From Panorpa germanica (taxonomy: Eukaryota > Arthropoda > Insecta > Mecoptera > Panorpidae), in the NCBI GenBank assembly GCA_963678705.1, contig OY783208.1:23586207-23650206 (forward strand): 64,000 nt of DNA, written 5' to 3'. The position numbers and the translations under genes are program-made. The notes beneath the pieces are model-generated. The model ran no database searches and was not told the origin of the DNA. It saw only the letters and a list, made by a program, of their open reading frames with translations. Each line of letters opens with the position of its first letter. The stretch's first letter is position 1. Below, piece after piece: positions 26,401-61,359 of this stretch.

Positions 26401-29400
26401 CAGTTATTTGTTGAGTAGGTCAGTGCTGTGGTAATGTTTTGTAGCTGTTGGTAGTCGAAATAATCAAGTCAAGTCAAAGAATAATAAGTTTTTATTTTAT
26501 TTAACCCTGTTAAGGCAGACATAATATTGAAATTTTATTGTTCCTTGAAATAGCTGTAAATAATATTTGATATTTTGATATATAAATACATATAGCAGAG
26601 ATTTATGAGCTGTAAGGTTGGTATCCTTACACAAGGATTGTGATGTCACATGCACTTGTAATGTGTACAACGTTGAATCCCTTTAATAATTAAAGAGACA
26701 AAATGACTTTTTTAATTGTTAATATCTCTTAACATATAAGGAGTTCTAGTAACCCACTTTATCAATATATAGTACACTTTTATAGAAATTAAGACATAGG
26801 ACACAAGCCCATTAAACTAACGTAAAACTCAGTATAAAATTAGTAAATATTAGGATCAATTTCTTTAATTATTTCGTTTTTGCAGTCAACCGAGCAAGGA
26901 GATTTAACGTTCAACGCTGGAGAATTCATCACAGTAATCAAAAAGGAAGGGGATTGGTGGACGGGGGTGATAGAAAATCGTACTGGTATCTTTCCATCAA
27001 ATTACGTACAAAAAACGGAACCACCACCGGTAAGTGAATATCAATTATCAGTAATATAACTAAAAGAAGAATCTATTAACACAAGTAGCATAATAATAAA
27101 ACGCTAGCAAAAATATATTGCTTTTGAATGTTAGCAAATATCCAAACCAAAGAAATATATGTATAGAATATATAGACGCCATCTGTTAATTAAATCCAAC
27201 AACACATATTAGTAAATATTTTATTTATTTTAATTAAAGCTTATAATACATTTTAATTAGCTTTTAAAGTTAGTATACTTGATGGAATAATCGTCCAATT
27301 TGTGTTATTTTTGCTATAAAATAGTTTTTTTTAAATATTGATTATAAATAGTTGACGGATTTTTTTAATAGATGTCTCTGAATGCTAGATTGTAAATAAT
27401 TAAAAGTACAAATTAACACTGCTTTTTAGAAAAGATAATTGTTCTCAATTGTTTTTGAAGTTAAACAATTATCTAGATATATTTATTACTATGTTTTACT
27501 GGTTTATTATTAAATTATATTAAAACCATTAAAGTGTAGTAATATTGAGAAGGTTTACTCACTTTAAAAGCCATGGTTATTCCAAAACGGCGGCCACTCT
27601 TGACAGATTCATTTAAAGAAAATAAAGGTGTAACAGTTTTTCTTGTTTATCTTGAAAACTATAAGCCCCACAAAAAATTTGTGAAGAGCTTTTTTGTAGA
27701 TAGCAATATTATCTACAACTTTTGTTAATTACTTTTTGTTGTAATTTTTATAATAAGAAAGTTATAACCAAAAATATATCACTTAGTGCAAGATTTATTC
27801 AAAATGGCCGCCAATAGGTTTTCTTTGTATGTGTAAACCATTTCTATGAATATGTATGTTCACTAAACAACACGTATATGTTTTCTTTGTGTGTGCGTCC
27901 AAAATAACCAGGATAACGGACAATTCACCCCTGCTACAGCTGACCAACAAATTGCTGAAGCTATTGAATCAAGTGGGGTTGTTGACAATGTAAATAATGT
28001 CGTTGATTTTCCATCAAATGTCAATCAAGCGATCGAACCAATGGCAACAACTCCAATTGATTCTGAAATATCGCAAATAACGCAACAAGCTAGTATTGAG
28101 CAGCAACAAGAGCAGCTGCAGCTGCAGCAGCAGCAGCAACAAATTATTGATGCGACACCTGATTTCGCTGCTCTAGCTGCTAACAACCAGGTATACCAAC
28201 ATTGTACATATGTTTTTATATTCTATGTTGCTTTTGTTTCTTGTGTTTTACTTGCAGAAATATTACGACAGTATAAGGTTGATGTCTTTGTTGTTGCGTA
28301 TGTTGTGTCACATAACTTTCAGGGGCTATTTGTTTTCTATTTTCAACAAGGGTATCTCTCTCAGTCACAGTAATCAAACATGTTTTTTCTCGTTAATATT
28401 CGCCTTTGCTCGGATTACATCGTGTCAATATATAAGGCTGTCTCACTCTAACCTATTGTTTTATATCTTTCTATTAAAATATTCCAAATACAACGTTATT
28501 ATTTATTTCTTGCTGTGCTGTAAACATAACCTTAAAACTATTTGTCACGGAAAAGTATTTGAGGTTAGTTAATTCAGTTGGTGCGCATGCGTCGTTAGTA
28601 ATATAAATTTTGACAGTTCGATTGAATGTGGAATAATTAAAATTGCTGTTTTTAATAACAATTAGTAATAGAAATTGTTTTTACTTCTTTATTTTTGACA
28701 AACTGACATTGAACTTCTTTTAAAAATAAATCTGACTGCGTTTTGACAGATTGTCACATTTTTGGAAGTTATAATGTAATACTAGGGTTTACCCCTGTCG
28801 CAAGCGACGACTGTTTTTTGTGTGTAAATTGAATTTCATTTCAAATTTTAATTTCATATTTATTTCACATATATTTTTTTTTTATTTAATTTATTTAACG
28901 TCGGCTATTTCCGATGCTGAGTCCTATCACGGACGACCTCCTTCAATGTTGGCAGTATTTATGGTGTTGAGGCCTCATATATGTGAGCTACACCGCTGCA
29001 TAATAAGTGTACGATTATGTATGACTATAATCAATATAAGTTCATAATAACCAAACCCAGAAAATATATATCTTGTCCGGGGATCGAACCCGAAGACACA
29101 GCAGTCAGCGTGAAGCTTCAACTATGTCGTCTATGTTTTGCATATAAGAACTAATAATTTTTCATATAAACTAACTAAAAAAATATATTTTTTCCAATTT
29201 ATAAATTATTTGTCCAAATTTTTTTCAAAATTTGGGATTTTTTTTTTCGATTTTTAAATAGGTACCAAAGTTAGTCCATATATAAAATTTCAACTTTCTA
29301 GCCCTATTTTTACGCTAGGTAAAAACCGCCCCGTGCCCCCAAATTAATTTTTTTTATTATATATATTTAATATTTCATTATTATGTAATTCAAAATTTGA

Positions 29401-32400
29401 TTTCCTACCGCGCCCCCTAATTTTCTTAACGCCCCCTTTTTGAATTTCTAATTTTCAAAAAATGTCAGCATTGTATACCTTAATACACATGCCAAATTTC
29501 AACTTTCTGTCTTTTACGAATTAAAAGTAATACAGCAAAAAGTAAAATTTCTTTTTTTTAATTTTTACAAAATTACGGGTTTCCAAGAAATTCAGGGAAA
29601 AATCCGAAGACGCCAAAAGTCTTAGAATTTTTTCTTCTACGAAATAGGTAATTTTAAAGAGCCACCATTCGAATCGCGTAAACATATAAATATACACCTG
29701 AAACAATACGTTAGAGTGAGATAACCTTATATCTAGTTTCATTTCATAATCCAAAATGGCGGCTATAATATACATATGACAGTTCTTCTGTAAAACATTT
29801 TCTTCGTATCTTCTTTCTCTTTCTATCATTGTGTGTTCATCAATGTGTATACATCTGTCCTTGTCTACGTTTTTAATCATTTCTAAATCTTTCAGAGTAT
29901 AAGATCGAAAAAGCCTGAAATAGCTCAGGTAATAGCGCCCTATGAAAGCACCAGCAGTGAGCAGTTGAGTCTGCAGCGTGGCCAACTGATCATGATTCGC
30001 AAAAAGACTGAGAGTGGGTGGTGGGAGGGAGAACTCCAGGCTAAAGGTCGTCGGAGACAGGTTGGATGGTTCCCTGCAAGCTACGTCAAGCTGCTAGTGG
30101 GTGGCCGAAATAGTGGACGGAACACACCTGTGTCTGCCAGCAAAACCGATATGATGGAAACAGTACTAGGTAAATAAATGAGTAGTGTAACTAAACAAGT
30201 TCTAGCCTAACTTAATAAAACTTTGCTTAAGGATGTATGAGCGAGAAAATAATATTTTAAAGAAATTAATTGTTGAAAAGTGACATAAAATACATTGCTC
30301 TTATGGAGAAATGGGTACATGTGATCATAAATCAATAAATATGAGTATGTTCTATATTGTGTGGTTTAAAAAAAAACTATTCATTAGAAAGGTGAATATT
30401 GGCGTGACAGGTCAATATTTTAAAAATTCTATGTATCCGTTCATCCTGAAAAGAAAATTAGAAATGAAATTCAAATTATGATATTTAATAAATTATTTTT
30501 CGCTATTGGCAACGTCGCACTGCTATAATAAGCGCCACAACACGACAGCGGGAAAAACGGTAATTAAAGATTTAAATATAACCTCGTTCAGAACTGTCAA
30601 AATTACGTAAATATTACGTGATAGTAACAGCTAAAATTAAGTACAAAAATTAAGAAAATAGCACATATGGTATATAGAATTAAAATATTTATAAACACTT
30701 TAATAATTTAATAACATAACCTAAAAATTATAATAGTAGTGATTCAAATTTATGTAGATACATAAAAATTATTTTTAAGTTTTTGAATTAATGACTTTAT
30801 AATCATTTGTTTTTTTATTTTACTATGTAAATTATTATCTATTTCTAGTGGTCGTTTTTTACAAAATAATCCTTGCTTGTTACGTTTTTGAGGTATATCC
30901 ATCTTTACAAAACATTCAAATGTCACCGGGAAAAAAATAACCAAAAAAAGCGGTGTTGCCAAATGTATATTTTGGTACAGATTTGACAAGAAAACAACAA
31001 TAAAAACTGTGAATTTAAAGCGGGGGTGTGCAAATTGTGTCCGTGTACAATAACCAGCAGTCATGCTAGCAATTACAACAAACAATTGGCTTGTGCCCTA
31101 TGTCTAATTTCTATAAAAGTGTACCACATATTGATAAAGTGGGTTACTAGAACTCCTTATATGTTAAGAGATATTAACAATTAAAAAAGTCATTTTGTCT
31201 CTTTAATTATTAAAGGGATTCAACGTTGTACAAATTCTGGTCTGGTTTCGTCTTTCTGGTTGAAACTTTTAAACGCGTTTTTCTCACACTTAGCTTTTTC
31301 AAAGTCGGTGTCTTCTCTAGCTAAAATGTACTGCACCGATCCTTTTGAAATTTTGCACACTCTTTCTTTACATAAATGCCGAGGTAACGCTGTCGAGTTA
31401 CTTAACAGGGTGTCCTGCAGAAGCTTATCAACTAATGAAATCATTTTGGTTTTTTGATTTCAAATAATCCAGTGATGAGTTATGAGGGACACCGCAATGA
31501 AACTTTTTTTTGTGACGTCACCGGAGATTCGCTGTCAATTTCTTATTTCTTGACATTTATTTATGAAAATTTCACAATGTATTCTTTAAATGTTATTTTA
31601 TCATGTAGTAATTATAGAGTTATTATATATTAACAGTGTCGTCAAAAAACATTATCGAAAATATGCTTAAATTAAAAATAAAACCATTAGATGTATTCCT
31701 AATTAATTTATTTTGCCAATTATATATAAGAGTTAAAAACTATTGAAGTCTATTTAAAATGCACTCGCAGTAGAGGATGACAGCTTCCTTTTGGAATGTC
31801 CTGCAAAATAATTAGAAATTAAAACAATGTTAAAGATGTCACATAACCTCCAGGGGCAATATGTTAGTTTATGTATTTTAAAAATGTTATTAAAGTTGTT
31901 AGTACAAACCTCTTTATGAAATTCAACTTCATGGAACGTTACATCTAAAATATTCGTCCTGTTTTTTTGTTGCGTCAGAACTTCGATTATTTTCAGGACT
32001 GAATCTGGTTCTACTGTGTCTCCACTAAGTTGCAAATTCTGCAAATAAGAATACCAGTTATTTAGAGCAATGGGCTTGTGTCCTCATTTTTTAGTGGTCG
32101 ATTTTTCAATTGATGTTAATAAATGTGTATTGGCGTGTCTATTTTATTAAATATCTAAATGTTGACGGAGATATAGCAATTAAAAGTTTGAATTGTAGTT
32201 TTAGCGCTAGAAATGGTCGGCCATATTTGTATGACGTGAAATGTAGTCTTATAGCGAGAGAAAGGTATTTGTTCCAGATATCTGTCACTTTCGACGCATA
32301 CGCATAGAGCACAAATATGAACATATACCTTTCTCTCTCGCACACATTTTGGACACACTTTTAATCTATAGGAAGTAATTAAAATTAAAGTTTTAAAACT

Positions 32401-35400
32401 CACCTGTAAAATGCTGGAACCCTGGATCAGCATTAGGATATCTTTTGTCTGTAAACCTTGGAACCATCTTAAATTTATTGTCGTCAAAGTCTTGCTAGTA
32501 GAGAGCCAACGCATCAATGCCGTGTAATCCGTATCTCTCCTGTCATGCCCGATTCTAATGTCCTTTAGCTTCGGCATTTTCGCAATTGTTTTGAACAAAG
32601 CTGCGCTATAAGTCATCATTTCTCCATCGATATCCAGGGAGGCCACGTTGGCGCACCTGCGGAACATCTGCGTAAGTCTGGCATTATGGTTGTGTCTCAA
32701 TTCCGACATCCTGAGACTTTGCAAATGTCTTAGCCTCCTTAAGGAGCCAAAGGGAAGCCAGAAAGGAAATTCACAGCACTTTACTTCCAGGTGTCTTAAG
32801 GGTGGCAGTTCAGCCATTATATGTGGGCAGACAAATGTCAAGATAATGTCCATGGTAAAGGAATCGAGATGCCAATCTCGGAAAAACTCTATTAAGGCGC
32901 CCATGGTCATACCTTCACAATTGAGCAGACGTAAGTGTTTTAGAGTCTTCGGTAATCGGAGTAGACAACTTCCGTCTTCGTTGTTCCCTGCCAAGGTCAC
33001 GACCTCAAGCTGTGGGTTGTTGGCAAAGATCTCACCAATGATATCTTGATCGATGGTTTCAATCGTTAAAGATTTCAAAGATCTTTGCGTTGCAGCAACA
33101 TCTGATAAAAAGAACAGACTCATAGTCACATTATTCGCTTGTCCTCTCCTATTTTTTACATATCCATCCACGGATAGGTGTTCCAGCTGGGTTTCTGGGT
33201 GGAATAATCCTCGCGAAGGCGTTTTCACGCGATACATCGGTATACAAACGCTTAAAGACTTTAACTGTGGGCAGGAGCTTAAAAAGCTTGTTCTGTCAGG
33301 TGTCAGGTCTATGCCGGAGATGTCCAGTGTTTCCAGAGCGCGAGAATGAAGACCAATCGTGTTTAGGAGCGAGTGTGTCATGGGGACACTCATGGAGCAA
33401 CTTATAACCAATTCTTTAAGGGAAGGACACAACCGCAAATACTGCAGGAGTCTGTCATCTACCGTCATACATTCACTAAATCGTATCACAGTTGTTTTTC
33501 GCCAGTAGGCATCTGTGGCTTCCTGATCCAGGAAGACTTTGCTGCACTCTAAGACATCTGGCTTGTCCAAGAAGGACACCAAGTGCTCCATGCAGTAAGT
33601 GTTTAGTTCTGTGATTAACATGGCGACGAATTAATAAGTTGGAAAACTATTTCAACAGTAGAGATTCACCTAGAAACAAAAATTACTTTAAAGTCAATAT
33701 ATAGAAACCAGAATTAAAACAACTAGAGACATCTAGCGGTATGGATTACTACTATTATGTTTAATGAGGTTAAAAAAAGGTTTTTCAAAATGGTGGTCTG
33801 CAAGATATTAAGGGGGACTTTTGTTTTTACAATAGTTTCGTTTCTACAGCCGTTTTAGCATATAAAGTTCAAATTACGAGAGTTCGGCGGCGACTCATAC
33901 TTAAAACAAGTTGTGGGGTTAAACTGCCGATACAACTAAAAAGCACAGACTCACTTGATTTTCTCTAATGTATATAGAAAGGAATAAGATAAAATTCATT
34001 ATCGTATTATAGATTTATACCGCTCTTATAACCTGTTTTAAGTATAAGTCACCGCCGAACTATCGTGACTTGGACTATACCTCAAAACTACTTTTTCGGC
34101 ATGGTGTTGTAGAAAACAAAAACTATTTAACCGAATCGTCTGAAATTTTAATATGTTATTCACAACATCAATAGCTATCGTTGGAACTAGAATCATTTTT
34201 TTATTTCAATAATTTCGTATTTTTTTTATTAAATAACTGGTAAAAAAACCTTTTTTTTAGAATTTGAAAAGCTCGCCATTTTGTCAATTTATAATTATTT
34301 TTTTGTATCTCTAGCTCCGATTATAGCTGTACTCGTACTAATTAATAATTTTGTTGGTTTTTATTTATCAGATAAATAGAAGAGCCAAATTCGGCAACAC
34401 CGTCCAGGTACAATTTTTGGACAGGGTCTACTTCACCGTCATTTTTAACATACTTAACAATATTTTTAAATTTCAAAAAAGATTTTTTGGTTTGTAGAAT
34501 AAGTGTGATAATAACCCTAAAAAGTTAAAATACCGTTTTTCATTATTTTTATTATAAACAGACATTCCTCAAAATACCCTAAACTTTAGAGGTCTAGATC
34601 TATTTTTTATGAATTAAAAGATATAGACCAAAAATTAAAAAACTTTTTTTTAGTTTTTCCAAAATCTGAGGCCTCCAAAAATCTTAGAATTTTCGAGCTA
34701 TCATACGAATCGCGTAAACATATAAACAAACAAACATATAAACATTCACTTGGAACATTATAATATAGGACGTATTTTTATATTTATTAATTAAATATAA
34801 AATGCAATTTAGGTTTTTTTTTGTATCTAAAACATTTTTAATAAGTTGAATAGCTAATTAAGTAAAATGCATCGGCGTATAAGAGCTTTAAAATAACGAA
34901 GATAATTTCAAAACACGTGGCACTATGACAATACAAATGAAATTCAATATTTGAGGTTATGTATACAAAGTTTGACATACCTTAAGTCAGGTAGATGCGT
35001 TCTGTTCACTTGCTGGTTGCAATTTAAGTGAGTTGTCTTCAAATCAGGTCCTGTTCAATTGCTGGATGCAGTTTAAATGAATTGTCTTCAAAATAGGTCC
35101 TGTTCAATTGCGGGTTGCAATTTAAATGAGTTGTCTTCAAATCAGGTCTTATTACTTAGATTAAAAATGTCTGACATGAATTGAGCCGCTTTAAGGGTGA
35201 TGGAAGGGGAAGGAAATGAGGCGTAAACATTTTAAAGTATACTCCCTCTGCAGAAAAGGTTTGTGAGGTATGAAAATCAGGTACTGTCATAAATATGCTA
35301 TCTCTTTTACGCTGTGTTGTGTAAAAGAGATAGCAACATTGCAGAACTGATTCACCTCTTGGAATGTGTACAACGTTGAATCCCTTTAATAATTAAAGAG

Positions 35401-38400
35401 ACAAAATGACTTTTTTAATTGTTAATATCTCCTAACATATAAGGAGTTCTAGTAACCCACTTTATCAATATACTAGAGTTATAGTATACTAGAGCAAGCG
35501 ACGACTGTATTTTGTGCGCGAATTGAATTCCATTTTTGAATTGAAATTTTTAACTCGTTCTATATTAATTTTACAAATAACAACAAATCATTTTTCATAT
35601 AAACTAACTAACAAAATATATATTTTTTAACAAAATAAATTTTTTTTCAATTTATTCGTTAAATGACCAACTTTTTTTCAACATTTATAAATTAGGTACA
35701 AAAGTTAGCCTATATAAAAAATTTCAACGTTCTAGCACAATTTTTACCCTCGGCAAAAACTACACCCGTGCCCCCAAATAAAATTTTGTAATTTTGAATT
35801 TTTCTTTTTTAATATGATATTTATTTATTACAAAATCCAAAATTTGAGCTTTCTCAAAAGTTCTCTATCGGGCTCCATAATTTTTTTCAGGGCCCCTTTT
35901 ATAAAATTTTAAATTTTGAAATATGTTCATATTTAACAGCGTAATGCACATGCAAAATTACGAAAAAAGAGTTTCATAGCAAAAATTGCCCATTTTTCCT
36001 AAATTACGGGTTTCCAGGAAAGTCCGGGGACGCTGAAAGTCTTAGAATTTTTTTCTCTACGAAATAGGCAATTTTCAAAAACATTGACGGAGCCGTTTTC
36101 GAGCCACCATACAAAATTCACTACAAAACATATAAGAATATAAACATACACTTGGAACATTATAATATGGACATTAAAGTTTTATAGAAATTAAGACATA
36201 GGACACTAACCTATTTTATAACTTTTGCTCTCTTCGGGAGCTAATTGTGCAAAGGAATAATGTGTCCTGGAGAAATTCAATTTAATCCAGGATAAGAGGA
36301 ATGGGCTTGTGTCCTATGTCTTAATTTCTATAAAAGTGTACTACATATTGATAAAGTGAGTTACTAGAACTCCTTATATGTTAAGAGATATTAACAATTA
36401 AAAAAGTCATTTTGTCTCTTTAATTATTAAAGGGATTCAACGTTGTACACATTCCAAATGCATGTGACATCACAACCGCTGCCAACCTTACAGCTCATAA
36501 ATCTCTGCTATATGTATTTATATATCAAAATATCAAATATTATTTACAGCTGTTTCAAGAAACAATCAAATTTCAATATTATGTCTGCCTTAGCAGGGTT
36601 AAATAAAATAAAAACTTATTATTCTTTGATTTGACTTGATTCTTTCGACTACCAACAACTACAAAACATTACCAAAGCACTGACCTACTTAACAAATAAC
36701 TGACGTTAAAATGCATTTCACGTCATACAAATTTTTAATTGCTATATCTCCGTCAACATTTAGATATTTAATAAAATAGACACGCCAATACACATTTATT
36801 AACATCAATTTCAATCAACAATTGAAAAATCGACCACTAAAAAATGAGGACACAAGCCCATTGTTTGATTAACATTTTTAACATAAGATTTGAATTTGTA
36901 GGAATGCAAATTATTTCAATTTTAGGGTTGATAAATTTGTTTTGGTTTTATCAGGTAGAAAAGTATCGGATTGTCCTGGCGCTATCCCTGGAATGTCTTA
37001 ATCGTTTTTGCAAACCGACAAAAAGGTTCTTCTCTTTTCCAGAATGTTGTTTACTTAGGCTCTGAAAATGTCTGTTTTACGACCTGCAATCAGACGAGTA
37101 AATATACTGGTACCAATTAAGAAAATAAGCGAGAAAATAAAATTCGATTTAAAGGCTCAAATATTTGTCTGTTCAAAGAATTTACCATTAAAATTTCAGG
37201 GTAGGTAACGGTTCATATTTTAAAGAAATTAATTGTTGAAAAGTGACATAAAATACATTGCTCTTATGGAGAAATGGGTACATGTGATCATAAATCAATA
37301 AATATGAGTATGTTCTATATTGTGTCGTATAAAAAAAAACTATTCATTAGAAAGGTGAATATTGGCGTGACAGGTCAATATTTTAAAAATACTATGTATC
37401 CGTTCATCCTGAAAAGAAAATTAGAAATAAAATTCAAATTATGATATTTAATAAATTATTTTTCGCCATTAACAACGTCGCACTGCTATAATAATAATCA
37501 AAATTAAGTGATTTTTGGTTTAAATTCCAAACGTAATGCAGGAACTTCATGAAAATTTGATATGTTATAAAAATCGTAGTCACAGACCTCATAAAGGAAA
37601 ATGAACATTATTGACCACGTCGTTATCGAGATATTATTATTTAAAATGTTGTCAGGATCATTTCTGTATTACTATAGGTGTTTTTATTTATTTCAGATAA
37701 GGTTGTAGCTTTGTATCCCTACACCGCTCAAAATGACGACGAATTGAGTTTTGAAAAGGACGATATAATTAGCGTAACAGGACGTGACGAGCAAGCTTGG
37801 TGGCGAGGAGAGAAAAATGGAGTTTCAGGACTCTTTCCCAGCAACTATGTGGGCCCTCTTGCAGGTACAGCCAGTTAACAGTCAAACTGTTTGAAGACAG
37901 TCACGTAAATTATCATATATCATAGTCATTTTTGAATCAATCAATTTGAATAATGAAAGAGTACATTAATATTGGTGTAAGTTGAGTTGCATAACACCTA
38001 GGCGCGTTGGTTTACTTGAGCTTGTGTCCCATGTCTTAATTTCTATAAAGTGTACTACATATTGATAAAGTGGGTTACTAGAACTCCTTATATGTTAGGA
38101 GATATTAACAATTAAAAGTCATTTTGTTTCTTTAATTATTAAAGGGATTCAACGTTGTACACATTCCAAATGCATGTGACATCACAACAGCTGCCAACCT
38201 TACAGCTCATAAATCTCTGCTATACGTATTTATATATCAAAATATCAAATATTATTTACAGCTATTTCAAGGAACAATAAAATTTCAATATTATGTCTGC
38301 TTTAACAGGGTTAAATAAAATAAAAACTTATTATTCTTTGGCTACCAACAGCTACAAAACATTACCATAGCACTGACCTACTCAACAAATAACTGACTTA

Positions 38401-51103: not shown

Positions 51104-54100
51104 TTAACTATTCGTATAAATTTTCTCCTGTAGTATTTGGTGATAGCAAGCCTGCAACAAAAACAAATTAATATTAATGTGTTGATAACGCCTGAAAAAT
51201 ATGCAATTGTTTATACACCGTTCATATTAAATTTAAATCTTCAAAGTATCACGAAATTAAGAACCCGATGAAATCCGAACAAAATCGAATGCTGTCGATT
51301 TAAAACATGTATACATTCAATGAGAGAGATAGCAATATGTTATGTACTTGTTTGTTGAAAAGAGAAAGTATATTTACATATGAATAAATCGACAGCCCCT
51401 GAAGGTTATGTGACACCTTGAACATATTTGAATATATTAAGTACTGTATTTTCTAGGTGGCGGAAAATGACGATCTATTTTTGATTCAACTTACTTTTAA
51501 TGTCGTGATCATGACGTCATCTTCTCCTTGATATTGGACATGTTCTTCTACGCTCATATTTTGGATGCATCCATTTTGTTCCACATTTAAATTGCCATTA
51601 ATTTGCACACTCTTCTCATAAATATTTGATTGTTCTAAAAGGTCTTCTATTAGTGCCACCTGTTATTAAAAATAATAACTATTAATACGTAATCATCGTA
51701 GATTGTATTTTGATAAAAAAAACCATTAATGTTAATAACTCCTTATATGTTAAGAGATATTAACAATTAAAAAAGTCATTTTTTCTCTTTAATTATTAAA
51801 GGGATTCAACGTTGTACACATTCTAAGTGCATGTGACATCACAACCGCTGCCAACCTTACAGCTCATAATTCTCTGCTATATGTATTTACATATCAAAAT
51901 ATCAAATATTATTTACAGCTATTTCAAGGTACAATCAAATTTCAATATTGTCTGACGTAACAGGGTTAAATAAAATGAAAACTTATTATTCTTTGACTTG
52001 CTTTGATTATTTCGACTACCAACAGCTACAAAACATTACCACAGCACTGACCTACTCAACAAATAACTGACGTTAAAATGCATTTCACGTCATACAAATA
52101 TGGCCGACCATTTCTAGCGCTAAAACTACAATTCAAACTTTTAATTGCTATATCTCCGTCAACATTTGGATATTTAATAAAATAGACACGCCAATACACA
52201 TTTATTAACATCAATTTCAATCAACAATTGAAAAATCGAGCAGTTTCTCTTGGAATTTGATATAAATATGAGTAAAATAAGATACTGTACTTTTGCCTAC
52301 GATTGTCCCTAATAGATTGTATTACGCTCCACATTATTCTTAGGGCATTACCTCTGATCCCAGCTGTAAAATCCTGGCGCGAATCACCAAAATCAAAAAT
52401 AAGGGAAACAATGTATCCATCCCCAACAAGAAATCACTCCCAAGTTGTTCGTACACCGCCTCGCTGAGCATCTTGAACGTTGTCCTCAACACCTGCAGCT
52501 TATGATGCGCGCAAAACGTTGTCTTAATTTGTTGCAGAGATTCGACGGCCCCCTGGAATAACTCACAAGAAATGACGCCTCGAAACCTGCTGTTAAATGA
52601 AAATAAATATTATAGGTGGTTTGTGTCTTTGCTAAGTTTATTATTTTTATAAATACTTACTTGTCTATACCTAGGAAGACCATCACCTCGGCGTTGTCTT
52701 TAACATTCCACGCGCACAGCCGCCTCCAGTAGCTGTCGTCATGCTCCTTGTGCGCCAGGGCGTAGAGCACGAAGAGCGCTGAGTTCAATCTTGGGAGGAT
52801 TATAGGATGCAGAAGAGCACTCGGAGAAACTAAAGTACTGCAAATAAAATAAAGTTTTAGCTTCGGGCATGTTCGGGTACCGAACGACTATGACACTAAA
52901 ACACAACATCACTTATTTGTTGAGTAGGTCAGTGCTGTGGTAATATTTTGTAGCTGTTGGTAGTCGAAATAATCAAGTCAAATCAAAGAATAATAAGTTT
53001 TTATTTTATTTAACCCTGTTAAGGCAGACATAATATTGAAATTTGATTGTTCCTTGAAATAGCTGTAAATAATATTTGATATTTTGATATATAAATACAT
53101 ATAGCAAAGATTTATGAGCTGTAAGGTTGTGATGTCACATGCATTTGGAATGTGTACAACGTTGAATCCCTTTAATAATTAAAGAGATAAAATGACTTTT
53201 TTGATTGTTAATATTTCCTAACATATAAGGAGTTCTAGTAACCCACTTTATCAATATGTAGTACACTTTTATATAAATTCAGATATAGGACACAAGCCCA
53301 TTTGGGATTTTTTTTTCGATTCGTAAATAAGTTACCCTATATACAAAATTTCAACTTTCCAGCACAATTTTTACCCTTAGCAAAAACCGCCCTTGTGCCC
53401 CCAAATAAAATTTTTGAATTTCGTTTTTTTAATATGATATTCAATTATTACGCAATACAAAATATGAGCTAACTCCAAATTTTCTTAGCGCCCCTTTTAT
53501 AAAATTTTGAATTTATAAATTTTGAAAAATGTTCGCATTCAATAGCGTAATACACATGCCAAATTTCAACGTTCTATCAATAACGAAGCAAAAGGGACCA
53601 CTTTTTTTCCAGTTTTTCCAAAATTACGGGTTTCCAGGAAATTCAAGGAAAAATCCGAGGACGCCAAAAGTCTTAGATTTTTTTCTCTACGAAATAGGCG
53701 ATTTTCAAAAACATTGACGGAGCCACCATACAAAATTCACTACCAAACATATAAGAATATAAACATACACCTGGAACATTATAATAAAGGATAATCAAGA
53801 TGATCTTCAGAACGTTTTTAGTACTTACCATTTATCCAACCAGATTTTCGTCTCTGGCAACGCTGGGAACAAAGTCTTCACGATTTGGTAGAGCCCCTGG
53901 GTAATCGCACTCAGCTCCCTCAGCGCGTGGTAACACAACAGGGGGCTCACAATGACGCCCCCGTATGTAAACGTAAACGCATTGCCTAGCGTCACCAGCA
54001 ACGAGTACAGCGGATGGGTCGGACTGTCGAACGCTTTGAACAAATACTGTTTTATCTCCAGGTAAACTTCCTTGTCCAGACACTCTATCCCGAACGCAGG

Positions 54101-57100
54101 GATCGTGTCCAGGTCATCAGAATTAAAACTACTTTCATGCTTTTTTCCAGGAGTTTTCATAGAGTTTTCCATTCTAGAATTTGATATGTATACCGCAATG
54201 TTTTGCCAAACTTTCTGAGTTTCTGTGGATAGACTTGAATTGCAAAGAACTTGTTGGTAGTGTTTGAAAATTGACTTCCATTTTTGTGAAGCCTGCACAG
54301 AAAGTTTTCCGAAGGAACTGCAAAAGAAAAATAAGAATTAAATTTATTTATATGAATGTACAACATATTAAGTTTATTGTGTGAAAATTTGAAGTCGATT
54401 GGAGTAAAACTGTCGGAGATGTAGAGTTTTAAGTCTTCACCTCTCTGGTGTGGTTTCGTCTTTCTTTGAAACTTTTAAACGCGTTTTTCTCACACTTAGC
54501 TTTTTGAGAGTCGGTGTCCTCTCTAGCTCAAAATCTACTGCACCGATCCGCAATGAAATTTTGCACACTCTTTCTTTACATAAATGCCGAGGTAACGCTG
54601 TCGAGTTACTTAACAGGGTGTCCTGCAGAAACTTATCAACTAATGAAATCATTTTGGTTTTTTGATTTCAAATAATCCAGTGATGAGTTATGAGTAACTT
54701 TTTTTGTGACGTCACCGGAGATTCGCTGTCAATGGCTCATTTCTTGATATTTATTTATGAAAATTTCACAAAGTATTCTTTAAATGTTATTTTATCATGT
54801 AGTAATTATAGAAATTATCGAACATTATCGAAAATATAATTTTTTTATCGTTTTGACCTTACCTAGGCTTATCCTGTATCGTTTGATTTGTTTTTAAGTT
54901 GCCAGTACACTTGACATTGTCCCAAGTTCCCCCCAATGTTCCTTCCAGCACTCTACCGCCCATAGAGAGCGCCCCCTTTCCTGCTGGTCCTTGCAGACCC
55001 TTCAAATCTCCTTCGTAGTGGGAATCATCTTCAAAGACAACAACCCCATGGCCCTATGGAACATAAATCCATTAAATATCCATCAGATACATTTTAGAAA
55101 TTAAATTCGTGAATTGCTTACTGTTAGCGTGTCCTGCATGAAGACCCCTTCATAATAATTCCCATCCAGGGTCACCAGAAGTCCGCAGCCGTTCTTCTTG
55201 TTGTCGCTCCAATTTCCCAGATATTTCTCACCGTTGGCAATATCGTCTAGGACCCCGTAGCCGCATTTCACGCCGTTGACAAACTCCCCGACGTAAATGC
55301 AGGCCCCCACGCTGTTGAAATGACCTCTGCGAAGGACCCCGTGCCCGTGACGAAGACCGTCCTTGAATTGGCCTTCGTACACGTCACCGTTGGCGTGGTG
55401 GAAGATTCCGTAGCCGTTGTACATGCCGTCCTTCCACTGCCCTTCATAGGTTCCTTGAAAATGTTATTAAGTACAGATTAATATAGATTAAAAGTGTGTC
55501 CAAAATGTGTGCGAGAGAGAAAGGTATATGTTCATATTTGTTCTCTATGCGCATGCGTCGAAAGTGACAGTTGTCTAGATATAATAAATATTAATATTCT
55601 ATTAAGATATAATAAATATTAAATATGTAAAGAAATTATATTTTTTTAGTTCGTACAAAGCTCGTATGTCGGTAAAACAGTGACCGTTCAGTGGAAACAT
55701 ATACGCCATTGATGTCGATGTAGGGATAACGGCCAACACAGTTGATATTTGGAGTGATCAGAACTCACGTTTTTAGTTATATTTATATTTATATAGTCCT
55801 ATATTATAATGTTCCAATTGAAAGTTTATTTGTATGTTTGTTTAGGTGTTTACGCGATTTTCTTGAAAATTGTCTATTTCGTAGGGAAAAAAATTCTAAG
55901 ATTTTTGGCGTCCTCGGATTTTCCCCTGAATTTCCTGGAAACACGTAATTTTGGAAAAACTAAAAAAAAAAAAGATAGAAAGTTGAAATTTAGCATGTGT
56001 GTTACGGTGTTCAATGCTAAAATTTTTTGAAAATTACAAAATTAAAAATTGGAAAAGGGGGCGTTGAGAAAATTAGGGGGCCCGGTAGAAAGCTTTGCAG
56101 AAAACGCAAATTTTGGATTACTTAATAATGAAATATGTTCTTAAGAAAAAAAAATTCAAAATTAAAAAATTTTATTTGGGGGCACGGGGGTGGTTTATGC
56201 CGAGTGTAAAAATAGGACTAGAAGGTTGAAATTTTATATATGGGCTAACTTTAGTACCTAATGTAGAAATCGAAAAAAAAATTCTCAAATTTTGAAAAAA
56301 AGTTGGTCAAAGAATGAACAAATTAAAAAAATATATTTTTTTAGTCAGTTTATATGAAAAATTATTTAGAACAAATATAGCAAAATAAATATAGAACAAG
56401 TTAAATATTTCAATTTAAAAATGGAACTCAATTCACACACAAAATACAGACCATGGGCTGATACCTTAGTATAAAGCAGTTGGTTTACTGACTAACGCAA
56501 AAATCAGTCACATTAGCGCCACTGGTATGCTTTGAAATCTGCTAAAATATCCGAAATAATAATAAGAAGAGTTTTTGACTGTTTTCCTGTTTGACTGTAC
56601 TACACTGTACTAGTTTATATTGTTTACAAGTTGTTTGAATTAAAAAAGTACATGTACTCTTATATCAGTTTCATAGAAAAGAAAAATCAGTGTATCAATT
56701 TTGTTGTTTGTTGTCAGCAAGCATTTTATTTAATATATTATTCTTACAGACTTTTTTTATCATAATAATAATAATTGTTATTAATATTATTTAAAATGAT
56801 TTTAAAGTGCTGTGTACCAAATTGCAAGTCGTGCAATTTCTGCATGCATGAGAACATTAGTACGCTTAAGTAAGTGTTAAAAAATGTATTAAACCTACAA
56901 TAAATAACATTTATGGAGGAATAAATTTATTAATAAATTGTTATTTTTCAGATGCAAATAATTGTCCCAAAAGTTTTAATGATACTGTAGATTTTTTATT
57001 GTTTATCAATAAATTATTTGATGGCGTGAATGGGGCAGCAATTGAATCCCAAAAGAAAAACATGTTGAGGTGAGTACTGCTAATTCCAAGCACTTAGAGT

Positions 57101-60100
57101 TTTGGAACAACGAAGCACTGCCAGTGTTAAGAACTATAAAATATAAAGGAAAAAATTATGCTCCACCATCAGTGAAAAATTTTATTACAACAATTCAAGG
57201 ATTAAGGTGTGTATAACAATATTAAATGTTATTAAATATAATTTATTTCTTTCAGATACATCTGAAAACAACTGCAGCCAATTGGTTTTAAGTACCTTAT
57301 TTTAAGGAACTTTAATCAAGATCCCCTGCAAAACTTTTTTGGCTGCATACGTAGCATCTAAAATAATATGCATGAAACAATTAAAATAAAAGTTTATTGT
57401 AAATGTAATAAATATTGTTATGAAATAAATGTGTTGTACTAAAAATTGTGTAATTTATATCTTTATAATATATGTTTATGAGAACCAATATTTATTTAAA
57501 AAAAGCGGTTGTAAACCAGGGTAAAATAGTAGCGCAGCAGCGGCGCCTTGCGACTGGTTTATCGTTAAAAAAAGTTCCCAAAATATAGCTGAGTTTCCAT
57601 TCTATATATACTTTCTTTTCTATGATACAGACGTCGCTTACGACGAGAGTAAACTCTAGTTACTTATATTTATACATATCTACATTATTCTACATCAGTA
57701 AAATGTCATATTTAACAACTGTCACTTTCGACGCATGCGCATAGAGAACAAATAGCAACATATACCTTTCTCTCTCGCACACATTTTGGACACACTTTCA
57801 GGTCCAGCATTCTCTCTCCATTATATATGCTCTAAGAACTTACCTAGCGTAGGATTCTCCATCCTTCCAAACCCCTGCATCTGGTTATTCTGGAACTGCC
57901 CAACATAAACTCGACCATCCGGCCATTTCAATTTCCCAGCGCCGTACATCTTGCCAAGTGTCCACCTCCCAGAATACTTAGCGTCCCTGAAATGAACACT
58001 TTTAGACGTGAAATTATAACTCGCCATTCGCACGATAGGTGGCTGATGCGTATTTGGTTTGTTCAACGCGATTTTCACTGCATTTTGAAGCGCCTGCACC
58101 CACTGCATCTTCTCCGCGGGGGATGGCGTGTACACAACGAACGATTCTTCGGGGGTGGTTATAGTAATCGCGTTTTGTAATCCGTCGGTGTCCTGCAGCG
58201 ACTCCACCCACAAAGTTTTTAACGGATACGTGTTGTGATTTCCGTTTACCACGTGCAGGAGAATATCCGAGAGAAGAACGAACCAGTGCGTCGTAAAACG
58301 GCTAGAATTGTGGACATAGAGGTTATTTGTCCTCGAGTCACGGATAAGCCTCCTTTCCGGAAGCCGGAAACAATCAATAGGCTTTCCCAAACCCTCCCAA
58401 AAGAGTTTCGTTGCATCCGCTTCACGGATTCTTCGATTCTGATCTTCATTTATTAAATCCAGTTTCGTTATTACGTCGTTATACCGTTTATCCATTGCGG
58501 CTTTGTCGTGAACAACGACATTCTTAAACAAATCCGTTACCATCGTTTTGTAGGTTAGGATTCTGTTCAACGGATGTTGGAAAATGTAATTAATAACATT
58601 TTCGTTCGTTTTCTTTTGTTTATTCTGCGGCATGTAATACTGGATCACACTTTGAGGAACGTCTATGTTCTTCGCTATTTGAATAAAACCTCCTGAAGAT
58701 ATAACGTCGCACAACGAATTTAAATATTCGTTGTAAACATGAATCAGCTCCTCAAATCTAGCTATTAGTATTGTTTCATACGGTTCTATATGATTCTCAG
58801 TTAGTTTTATAAACGAATCTACATTTAACGCTGTTATATGAAGTATATCAACATATCTGTTACACATAACCTCAAATATTTTAATATCATTTAACACATT
58901 CGTTATCTTTTTAATTAACGGTTTCGTTATATTTATTTGTACTGTCAAAAGTTCTTCGAGAAATGTTTGTTCCAAAGACACAAACCTTTCTGTTTTATTT
59001 ACAGAATTACAGTAAGTAAACAAACCGTTTGAATAAAGATTACTGTAATTATTGTTATATTTTTTATTTATTATACTATTTTTACTATTTATTTTCTTTA
59101 GTTCTATATTCACATCACCAGTTACGTTTGTTTTATCTTCGTATTTATATAACTCTATTATTTTATCCGTGATTCCATTAGAATGGCGTCCGGTATAGAA
59201 TAAATGGAGGTTGTGAGTTAAGATAATGGAATTAAAGGGGCCACACGATCCGTCCCGCACCCTGTCAGTGTTGCAAATAGACGTGAATTGTTTTGGGAAG
59301 CTTTGGTCCGTTTTCGAATCCGAATGGATTTGATGATTGTTATTTTGACCCCAGAAAAACGCCCGTCCATCTAAAGTGAGGGCCAGGGCGTGAGAATGCC
59401 CGCTATAAATCCGTTTAACACCAACACCACTCAATTTAGACACTATCGTAGGTCTGGACCGTTTTATATTGTCCCCCGTTCCCAACTGCCCCTGATTTAT
59501 CATCCCCCAAGTCCACAAATCCGAATTTAACATATTTTGTCCACTTTTTAATAAATTTTGAACTTTTTCACAAATATCATGTTCGGAATTTTCTCTATCA
59601 CTAAAAGTACTACACGAGCCTAAGAAGTCATATAATTTAGCCGGAAACTCGTCGTTACTTTCCGGAACTTCTAAAACATCAGTGTTTTCGAGTGTGTCGT
59701 TATCACTTCCGCTCATGTGGCGGGATAAGTTTTTAACGCCTTCATACACTAAACTTGTGAGGTTTGAAACATTCTCCTTAATAATCCTGGTTGGCTTCTC
59801 CGTGCAATCCGCTAGATACTCCTCCCCCGCTGATACCCAACTTAATTGCTTCGTTAAAAACTGCCTGGCTGCTTCGGAGGTTATAAAATTGTGGATTCCA
59901 TTCGACGTGCCTTCGCTTTCGCTGGTCTTCTTCACACAATCGCATTTCTCCTTGTCTGCGACATCTTCGCTAACCTCCCCATTATCTTTAAGACGTTTGT
60001 GTCGCTTAGAATCCTCTGTAGACGTTGAATCCTCGTTAACCTCGCTCACGTTGGTACCACTGCTGGTGTCTTCAGTGCTCTTGCTGATGTGGAGCCCCAG

Positions 60101-60757
60101 AGGACACGTGTCCATCGAAACTGGCGAAGACAATCGACTCATCAACGCACATTGTGGACAATTACTCACAAAAACATTTTCACTGGTTTCACTGTCCGAC
60201 TCGCGTTCGTATTTCATGCTTTTTCGCGCCAAAACCATCGCGAAGTTGTTGCCAACTGAAGCGGCACTAATTATCTTACCCTCAAAGAATAAAACGCGTT
60301 TTGGGATTTCACTTTCAACGCCAATTTGTGGCATGTAACCGGAAGCCCACAATTCGGATGTTTCCGTTACGTACAAGCAGCCATATTCCCCGACGGAAAC
60401 TTCCCTAACCTTCATTTGACATCCTGGTGACTTAAAGCCATGCGAACAACTTTTTGCTTCTTCTTCTAAGACTACTTCGATGATGTCTTCAAAGTTTGTT
60501 GTTTTGTAAAGCCTCCCGTCTTTTTTAACAATGTATAGATTATTTAAGGTGGCTCCTATATCGATTACATCGATGGATTCGTATTTATCTAACGATAGTG
60601 ATAATTGATTATCGATTTCTTTCACTTCTCCATAGTATAACTCGAAATTTGAGGTTAATAAATATATATTATCATTAATGGCGCATAATTTTCTTATATT
60701 ATAATTAAGTTCCAAATTTATTGCATCGAGACCTTTCCAACATTTTGGTAAATTCAT
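51104..60757 (-). CDS. Als2: Alsin (ALS2), Rab5 guanine nucleotide exchange factor
   Basis: Eight exons on the minus strand: 60757-57844, 55453-55122, 55053-54863, 54317-53829, 52837-52661, 52586-52352, 51659-51495, 51151-51104. They join in frame to about 1516 residues; human ALS2 is, from memory, about 1657. Alsin activates Rab5 through its VPS9 domain on endosomes and also acts on Rac. Seen: RCC1-like blades at about 134-180 and 411-475 (LWTWGMINQGQLGTGDN); a DH-like region from about 588 (LEQTFLEELLTVQ); a PH-like region about 820-900 ending WVQALQNAV; about eight MORN repeats from about 929 through exon 2 (YEGQFKDGLRHGHGVL, YLGNWSDNKKNGCG); and a VPS9 region over exons 4-7 (LHPIILPRL, then LFPLFLILVIRAR). 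The first exon alone encodes 971 residues. The start is the first Met of MNLPKCWKGLDA. Exon 6 has a CAGCAG acceptor, so one residue is ambiguous. Its introns contain MITE-A, H1, repeat D and the MITE-E nest. Confidence 0.95.
51731..52238 (+). mobile_element. MITE-A, ends missing
   Basis: It runs from AATAACTCCTTATATGTTAA to CAATTGAAAAATCGA without terminal repeats. It lies in an alsin intron (51660-52351). Confidence 0.85.
52910..53301 (-). mobile_element. MITE-A, left two-thirds
   Basis: It starts within the family at TTATTTGTTGAGTAGGTCAG and reaches the terminal GACACAAGCCCAT. It is followed at once by Helitron H1 sequence. It lies in the alsin intron 52838-53828. Confidence 0.85.
53302..53791 (-). 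mobile_element. Helitron H1, 5' part
   Basis: It matches the H1 interior and ends CTGGAACATTATAATAAAGG then A. Read on the minus strand it starts TCC after an A, as Helitrons do. The CTAG end is missing at the MITE junction. Confidence 0.7.
54341..54858 (-). repeat. Repeat D, full-length, filling an alsin intron
   Basis: It occupies nearly all of the 545-nt intron 54318-54862. About 4-5 nt remain at the donor side and about 24 nt at the acceptor side. It points the same way as alsin. Its 71-codon frame (54652-54437) differs at one residue from the Dap160-intron copy. Confidence 0.8.
55797..57659 (+). mobile_element. Helitron H1 carrying a P-like transposase remnant
   Basis: The 5' side starts TCCTATATTATAATGTTCC and follows H1 to about 56452. 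H1 resumes at about 57622 with the hairpin CGTCGCTTACGACG and ends CTAG followed by T at 57660. The intervening 1.17 kb (56453-57621) is foreign to H1, and the same ATACAGAC stretch occurs at both junctions. Confidence 0.7.
56796..57390 (+). pseudogene. P-element/THAP9-like transposase remnant
   Basis: Four short segments with GT/AG-like borders resemble a deleted P-type transposase. A THAP-like start (MILKCCVPNCKSC, 56796-56869) comes first. Next are FNDTVDFLLFINKLFDGVNG (56952-57069), HLEFWNNEALPVL and IKYKGKNYAPPSVKNFITT (57091-57206), and NQDPLQNFFGCIRS (about 57314-57355). The spacing of these phrases is far shorter than in a full transposase and the frames do not join, so the RNase H-like catalytic core is missing. 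Family assignment rests on remembered similarity. Confidence 0.65.
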
Positions 60758-60866
60758 TTTTTTTACTAGAAGCTGCTTTTTTATCAGTCTGAAAATAATA
60801 AAAAATAATTATAAATTAGTCTCATGACAAAATAAAGTCAATGGCGTTTAAGGCATTATATTAAAA

Positions 60867-61359
60867 TAGAGTTTACCCCCGTCGCAAGCGACGACTGTCC
60901 TTTGTGTGTTTTCAAAATTTGGAATTTTTTTTTCGATTTGTAAATTAGGTACCAAAGTTAGCCCATATAAATAATTTCAGTTTTCTAGCACAATTTTTTC
61001 CCTCGACAAAAAGTTTCCTACCGGGCCCACTAAATTTCTCAGGGCCTCTTTTATAAAATTTTGAATTTCAAAGTTTTAAAATATGTTCGCATTAAATAGC
61101 GTAATACACATGCAAAATTTCAACCTTTTATCTTTTACGAATTAAAAGTTATAAAGGAAAAAAGGGCCCAGTTTTTCCAAAGTTACGGGTTTCCAGGAAA
61201 TATTCAGGGACGCCAAAAGTCTTAGAATTTTTTTCTCTACGAAATAGGAAATTTTTAAAAACTTCTTTGGAGCCGTTTTCGAGCTACCACACAAAATTCA
61301 GTACCAAACATGTAAACATAGAAACAGATAAGAATCACCTGGAACATAATAATATAGGA
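60867..61359 (-). mobile_element. Helitron H1, short copy
   Basis: The minus strand has the perfect hairpin CGTCGCTTGCGACG and the H1 spacer, with a mutated CTAG (CTAT). The other end reads TCCTATATTATTATGTTCC. About 490 bp with an interior deletion. Intergenic, about 110 bp upstream of the alsin start. Confidence 0.75.

Follow-up and report, generated by a model that had tools for sequence, protein, structure and literature searches.

A P element within a Helitron within a MITE makes up nearly all of an alsin intron in Panorpa germanica

An intron of the alsin (ALS2) gene of Panorpa germanica raises the question of how an intron came to consist almost entirely of transposons lodged one inside another, and in which order they arrived. 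The intron lies in a 64,000-nt stretch of contig OY783208.1 (the window), for which an earlier note, made from the letters alone, had proposed a triple nest of a miniature inverted-repeat transposable element (MITE-E), a Helitron (H1) and a piece with P-type transposase phrases. All three layers were found at the places proposed, with arms, Helitron ends and P piece confirmed, and 2355 nt (98.5%) of the 2390-nt intron are transposon-derived. The history that very probably explains them is insertion of the MITE into an old alsin intron, of the Helitron into the MITE and of an internally deleted P element into the Helitron. The nest is clean, comes with empty sites for its two inner layers and lies 7 nt from a splice donor; its anatomy is clear, and it is an unusually readable example of ordinary transposon build-up.

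The host intron and its native remnants are:
55454..57843, minus strand: alsin (ALS2) intron, 2390 nt, phase 1, GT-AG, placed by exon open reading frame (ORF) domains, gap-free homologs and a shared intron position
57837..57843, minus strand: native 5' intron remnant, GTAAGTT in gene sense, outside the MITE end as set by genomic copies
55454..55481, minus strand: native 3' intron remnant of 28 nt with the acceptor; MITE similarity begins at 55482

The exon ORF at 57824-60805 (minus strand) matches the alsin PH, DH and RCC1-like domains and one MORN repeat in Pfam, and the next exon ORF also matches MORN. Among the 120 of 176 matches listed, the closest named homolog is that of the caddisfly Arctopsyche grandis (43% identity), two proteins without a name stand nearer (50 and 49%), and further matches are for the most part lepidopteran or unnamed. 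All 95 of these 120 homologs that span the exon junction align across it without a gap; therefore the predicted phase-1 splice, from donor 57843 to acceptor 55454, is exact, and the intron borders first proposed hold. The age of the intron was read from the 28 homologs shorter than 1300 aa, the 92 longer ones being gene models that are uninformative on introns. Twenty-four of the 28 stop no more than 24 residues from the end of the alignment, directly after the same glycine, and the other four read on into the MORN repeat that follows. In 20 of the 24, the residue after the glycine is K (14), M (3), E (2) or R (1), the readout of phase-1 donors GTAAG, GTATG, GTGAG and GTAGG; of the other four, one stops at the glycine itself and three carry N, Q or T at that place. 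We presume these 24 proteins to be ORFs of unspliced DNA. Their common stop point and donor-like residues, as seen through protein homologs, indicate that the intron position is old and predates the MITE. Native DNA now amounts to 28 + 7 = 35 nt, and not to the approximately 80 nt, a normal short insect intron size, that had been estimated. Since 35 nt is too short for an intron, some native DNA was probably lost along with a missing MITE end.

The outer layer comprises:
55491..55574, plus strand: left arm of an 84-nt inverted repeat (self-comparison)
57715..57798, minus strand: right arm of the same repeat (self-comparison)
55482..55796, plus strand: MITE-E left part, with about 45 bp of the left end missing (alignments; 90-93% identity to genomic copies)
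57660..57836, plus strand: MITE-E right part, with the intact end ...ATATATGCTCTAAG (alignments with genomic copies)
57837..57844, no strand assigned: 8-mer adjoining the intact MITE end, GGTAAGTT in gene sense, a would-be target site duplication (TSD) across the exon-intron border, given that the family makes 8-bp TSDs

The arms are 98% complementary, and the longest exact inverted match between 55000 and 58300 is 42 nt, as compared with at most 22 nt in 200 dinucleotide shuffles. Searching the assembly (464 Mb, 249 contigs) for the left part yielded 2814 first-look candidates. The 40 best of them were scored and, apart from the window itself, are 90-93% identical to the query. Nineteen second-arm matches lie close to the MITE-E copies in this set, and both ends are readable in 16 of the 29 copies that were fetched, with lengths of 494-653 bp. 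Could the arms be two independent insertions of one short repeat, or a palindrome that arose by chance? A single arm does occur alone in the window at 32273-32370 (95% identity to the left arm), near the apparent splice donor of another gene. The second arms close to MITE copies and the two-ended copies of 494-653 bp nevertheless refute this reading, which we regard as next to impossible. An exact 22-mer of the arm had no match in IMG/VR viral contigs, and the arm was not found in 140 kb of fetched genomic loci. The inverted repeats are thus real but are not the ends of the MITE, as had been supposed: genomic copies extend beyond the right arm to ...ATATATGCTCTAAG, which puts the true right end at 57836 and leaves 7 nt to the splice donor, and similarity on the left begins at approximately 55482.

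Flanking 8-mers of the 16 two-ended copies are identical in 4, agree at 7/8 or better in 8 and at 6/8 or better in 11, whereas mismatched flank pairings reach 6/8 or better in 4 of 240. The family makes 8-bp TSDs and, being short and non-coding with long inverted ends and high copy number, resembles other MITEs with 8-bp TSDs, although the window copy itself shows none. Bases beside the intact right end read AACTTACC, which in gene sense is GGTAAGTT and contains the splice donor; no twin of this 8-mer was found at the left side of the MITE in the window. If GGTAAGTT is the TSD, then the MITE struck the donor itself and the duplication preserved it. A donor inside the would-be TSD, together with just 35 non-MITE nt, might suggest an introner, whose insertion made the intron with the TSD giving the donor, and passages of PMC9860276 report TSDs (49/130) and terminal inverted repeats (72/177) for many introner families. 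We consider this very improbable. An introner supposes that the intron was absent before the element, and here the intron position is shared, with 24 of 28 short homologs ending after the same codon and 20 showing a residue like that of a phase-1 GT donor; moreover, the 28 nt on the acceptor side have no similarity to the MITE. These findings favor entry of the MITE into an intron that already existed.

Within the MITE lies the Helitron:
55797..56451, plus strand: Helitron H1 5' part, TCC start (kept in four of seven aligned copies; same start in MITE+Helitron loci)
57633..57659, plus strand: Helitron H1 3' end with CTAG (copy alignment)
57632..57645, plus strand: Helitron 3' hairpin CGTCG-CTTA-CGACG, its first base common with the P TSD (read by eye and aligned, not folded)

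Helitrons begin with TC, end with CTRR just after a hairpin, make no TSD and insert between A and T or between T and T. We aligned seven genomic copies with the window H1 from which the P element had been cut out. The start TCCTATATTATAAT is kept in four copies, altered in one (L026) and lost in two (L020 and L023), all seven reach the 3' hairpin region, and six keep the CTAG end, such that the proposed limits of 55797 and 57659 coincide with ends common to the copies. With its TC start, its CTAG end, a preceding hairpin read by eye and no TSD, the window H1 is best explained as a non-autonomous Helitron. The insertion site reads ...TATATAG|Helitron|TTACTTATATTT..., without duplication, and none of the 29 fetched MITE-E copies has a Helitron at this point, which supplies the empty sites for this layer. 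By eye, the empty target stretch is readable as ATAG|TTTATTTATATTT or near it in ~19 of the 29; the remaining copies carry small changes or deletions in the AT-rich run.

Within the Helitron lies the P element:
56452..57624, plus strand: internally deleted P-superfamily element of 1173 bp that cannot encode a transposase (comparison with genomic copies)
56444..56451, plus strand: left TSD ATACAGAC (flank comparison)
57625..57632, plus strand: right TSD ATACAGAC (flank comparison)

This element runs from CATGGG to CTATG, both ends complete, between perfect 8-bp copies of ATACAGAC, and its insertion point is the 5' base of the Helitron 3' hairpin. All seven aligned Helitron copies continue through that point without P, and the left P/Helitron junction was found in the window only, among the best 40 of 488 candidates scored. 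The perfect TSD and the Helitron copies without P therefore demonstrate that P landed in an existing Helitron, narrowing an earlier 'with or after' to after. Since passages of PMC4344730 describe the acquisition of host DNA by Helitrons, the P piece might have been picked up by the Helitron and multiplied along with it, as opposed to being inserted by P transposase. Capture is ruled out mainly by the exact TSD around complete P ends; P is also missing from the seven aligned Helitron copies and from three loci at which a Helitron sits in MITE-E (see below), making capture hardly credible. We therefore retain insertion by P transposase.

Full copies of the P family are ~3.7 kb long. Five of them (L009-L013) are mutually 99.5-99.7% identical, a sign of recent movement, and L016 stands at 97.8-98.0%; the nest would thus point to recent activity of a P family in an insect. 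Three of the four transposase pieces of L009 match Tnp_P_element, TNP-like RNaseH N and C, GBD and THAP, the last just above cut-off (24.4 versus 23.9 bits), and the remaining 95-aa piece has no match. The largest transposase exon has relatives at up to 54%, the best named being from the beetle Brassicogethes aeneus (50%). Relative to L009, two interior stretches, ~1.79 kb and 0.71 kb, are absent from the window copy (BLAST breakpoints); with no more than the opening codons of the THAP exon left, it codes no transposase. It is 96-97% identical to near-full copies over its first 381 bp and 97.5-99% over its last 272 bp, and 88% and 76%, respectively, to the divergent L018. Across 14 two-ended copies (window included), TSDs are exact in nine, match at 7/8 in three and are lacking in two (L013 and L019), with L028-L031 all deriving from one insertion within a duplicated region, and hence fewer independent events. 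Two further copies, L064 and L065, have an exact TSD by eye.

The Helitron in the MITE has counterparts elsewhere. A query for the MITE/Helitron junction was scored for the best 40 of 2460 candidates, and eight other loci were fetched. In three of these, the Helitron 3' end meets MITE-E at exactly the base where it does so in the window (CTAG|TTTATT in L066 and L067, CTAG|TTGATT in L068), and the left sides differ by a few bases. Junction query and alignment place these H1-type Helitrons at:
L066, 572-985
L067, 604-1277, reverse strand
L068, 571-1150

The other five (L069-L073), with an apparent crossing of ~10 bases, proved to have no Helitron once fetched. No P-element match was found in L066, L067 or L068. 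A single clade for the four Helitrons was rejected by the approximately unbiased test (p 1.6e-7). Pairing the L068 Helitron with any one of the other three was rejected (p 7.5e-7, 3.2e-5 and 3.9e-6, the pairing with the window standing at 7e-7), whereas the other pairings (p 0.127, 0.084 and 0.205) and the trio of window, L066 and L067 (p 0.067) were not. One clade for all four MITE parts was likewise not rejected (p 0.864), in a tree with one starred branch in 30. Because the L068 Helitron belongs to another lineage, the spot would have been struck at least twice; at least two Helitron lineages would then have landed there, unless Helitron sequence was replaced by exchange at a later time. 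Because its loci were chosen for this junction, the survey gives no rate or peak of landings, but it raises the question of whether the MITE has a preferred Helitron landing spot.

These loci also bear on where the nest was assembled. The MITE could already have carried the Helitron, perhaps P too, when it entered alsin, in which case the order of events belongs elsewhere. The three further loci with a Helitron at the same MITE position, the trio whose single origin was not rejected and the one MITE clade for all four are in keeping with this. On the other side, the Helitrons of a given locus pair have diverged at least about twice as far as its MITEs (14% versus 7% for window-L067, 19% versus 9% for window-L066 and 21% versus 8% for window-L068), the window Helitron is nearest to L023 and L021 in the tree, the test excludes L068 as its partner, and no P match occurs at the three loci. 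We judge a preloaded MITE to be improbable. The earlier note's reading of the order from the junctions accordingly stands for the nesting and its spatial order; that each step took place within this intron is unprovable from the junctions alone.

Several points weigh against stepwise build-up in the intron. The window MITE has neither its left end nor a demonstrable TSD, such that we infer both its insertion point and a later deletion, and 5 of the 16 two-ended family copies also have no TSD. H1 sits between G and T in the window, as opposed to the usual A and T, which sets it apart from Hel-2-type Helitrons as well; elsewhere its flanks are A|T (L021 and L025) or C|T (L022 and L024). Finally, the 84-bp stem discussed below and its effect on splicing are predictions only.

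Taken together, the evidence favors a history in which a MITE of ~550 bp with 8-bp TSDs would have entered an old alsin intron 7 nt downstream of its donor, at a target whose duplication covered the donor, so that the donor survived. A later deletion may have removed the MITE's far end together with the second copy of the TSD and part of the native intron, so that 28 nt with the acceptor remain. A non-autonomous Helitron would then have entered an AT-rich MITE spot also used by other Helitrons, after which P transposase would have inserted an internally deleted P element at the base of the Helitron 3' hairpin. Splicing presumably continues to rely on what is left of the native intron, 7 nt with the donor and 28 nt on the acceptor side. 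In the pre-mRNA, the MITE arms may pair as an 84-bp stem that loops out the 2.1-kb nest, which would keep the splice sites ~82 nt apart and make the transposon load tolerable.

We folded the intron pre-mRNA with 20 nt of each exon. In the predicted fold, 82 of 84 arm positions pair with the opposite arm (mean probability 0.975; duplex energy -149 kcal/mol), as would be predicted for any near-perfect inverted repeat of this length, with 45 nt between the base of the stem and the donor and 37 nt between it and the acceptor. Intra-intron pairing that draws splice sites together has been described in yeast and fish, according to passages of PMC7404189. We raise the doubtful idea that the MITE in this way makes its own intron safe for further insertions, and that such MITEs, with their Helitron landing spot, are sheltered landing pads on which short introns can swell harmlessly. 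If true, insertions between MITE arms would be spliced out as though absent. The nest thus raises the question of whether inverted MITE ends that bridge splice sites buffer introns against growth.

The inner layers resemble known systems to differing degrees. Like the P superfamily (Drosophila P, Anopheles AgaP and zebrafish P-like elements), the P family has an 8-bp TSD and many internally deleted copies, and its full genomic copy shares THAP, a P-type helix-turn-helix, a split RNase H and a GTP-binding insertion. Terminal inverted repeats measure 31 bp in Drosophila, 27-31 bp in Anopheles and 13 bp in zebrafish, according to passages of PMC1562414 and PMC7776569, whereas the window element is nearly without one. 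Its end structure is odd for the superfamily in that the extreme ends barely match, sharing only CATGG/CATAG, and the best local alignment of the L009 ends lies internal. The last 13 bp (57612-57624) have an inverted counterpart at 56672-56684, ~220 bp in from the 5' end, which in some other copies shows a mismatch. H1 resembles non-autonomous insect Helitrons such as the lepidopteran Hel-2 in its structural features (TC start, 3' hairpin, CTAG end and no TSD; passages of PMC4344730). The same source describes a 1006-bp Hel-2 with a transposable element inside, in a baculovirus; both cases have a transposon within a Helitron, and the window nest has three layers in a gene intron. Among literature titles and abstracts we recognised no account of this alsin nest, a scope that does not permit a claim of absence.

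Several other copies of these families were observed. A candidate P insertion at a like Helitron site in C3 (L063) was set aside, its 5' flank not being Helitron. Reverse nesting occurs in L019 (G000:C19:47000-55300), where two H1-type Helitrons lie within a P copy. One internally deleted P copy recurs at G000:C5:14.49-14.89 Mb (L029, L030 and L031) and also in L028, probably by local segmental amplification, and a Helitron scrap lies 14 bp from the P 3' end in L028, L029 and L030. Positions 794-1184 of L065 (reverse strand) hold a 391-bp P-derived miniature element with an exact 8-bp TSD, ATGGCAAC. More H1-type copies or pieces are present in the window at 28782-29696, 34661-34770, 35528-36168, 53300-53791 and 60867-61261.

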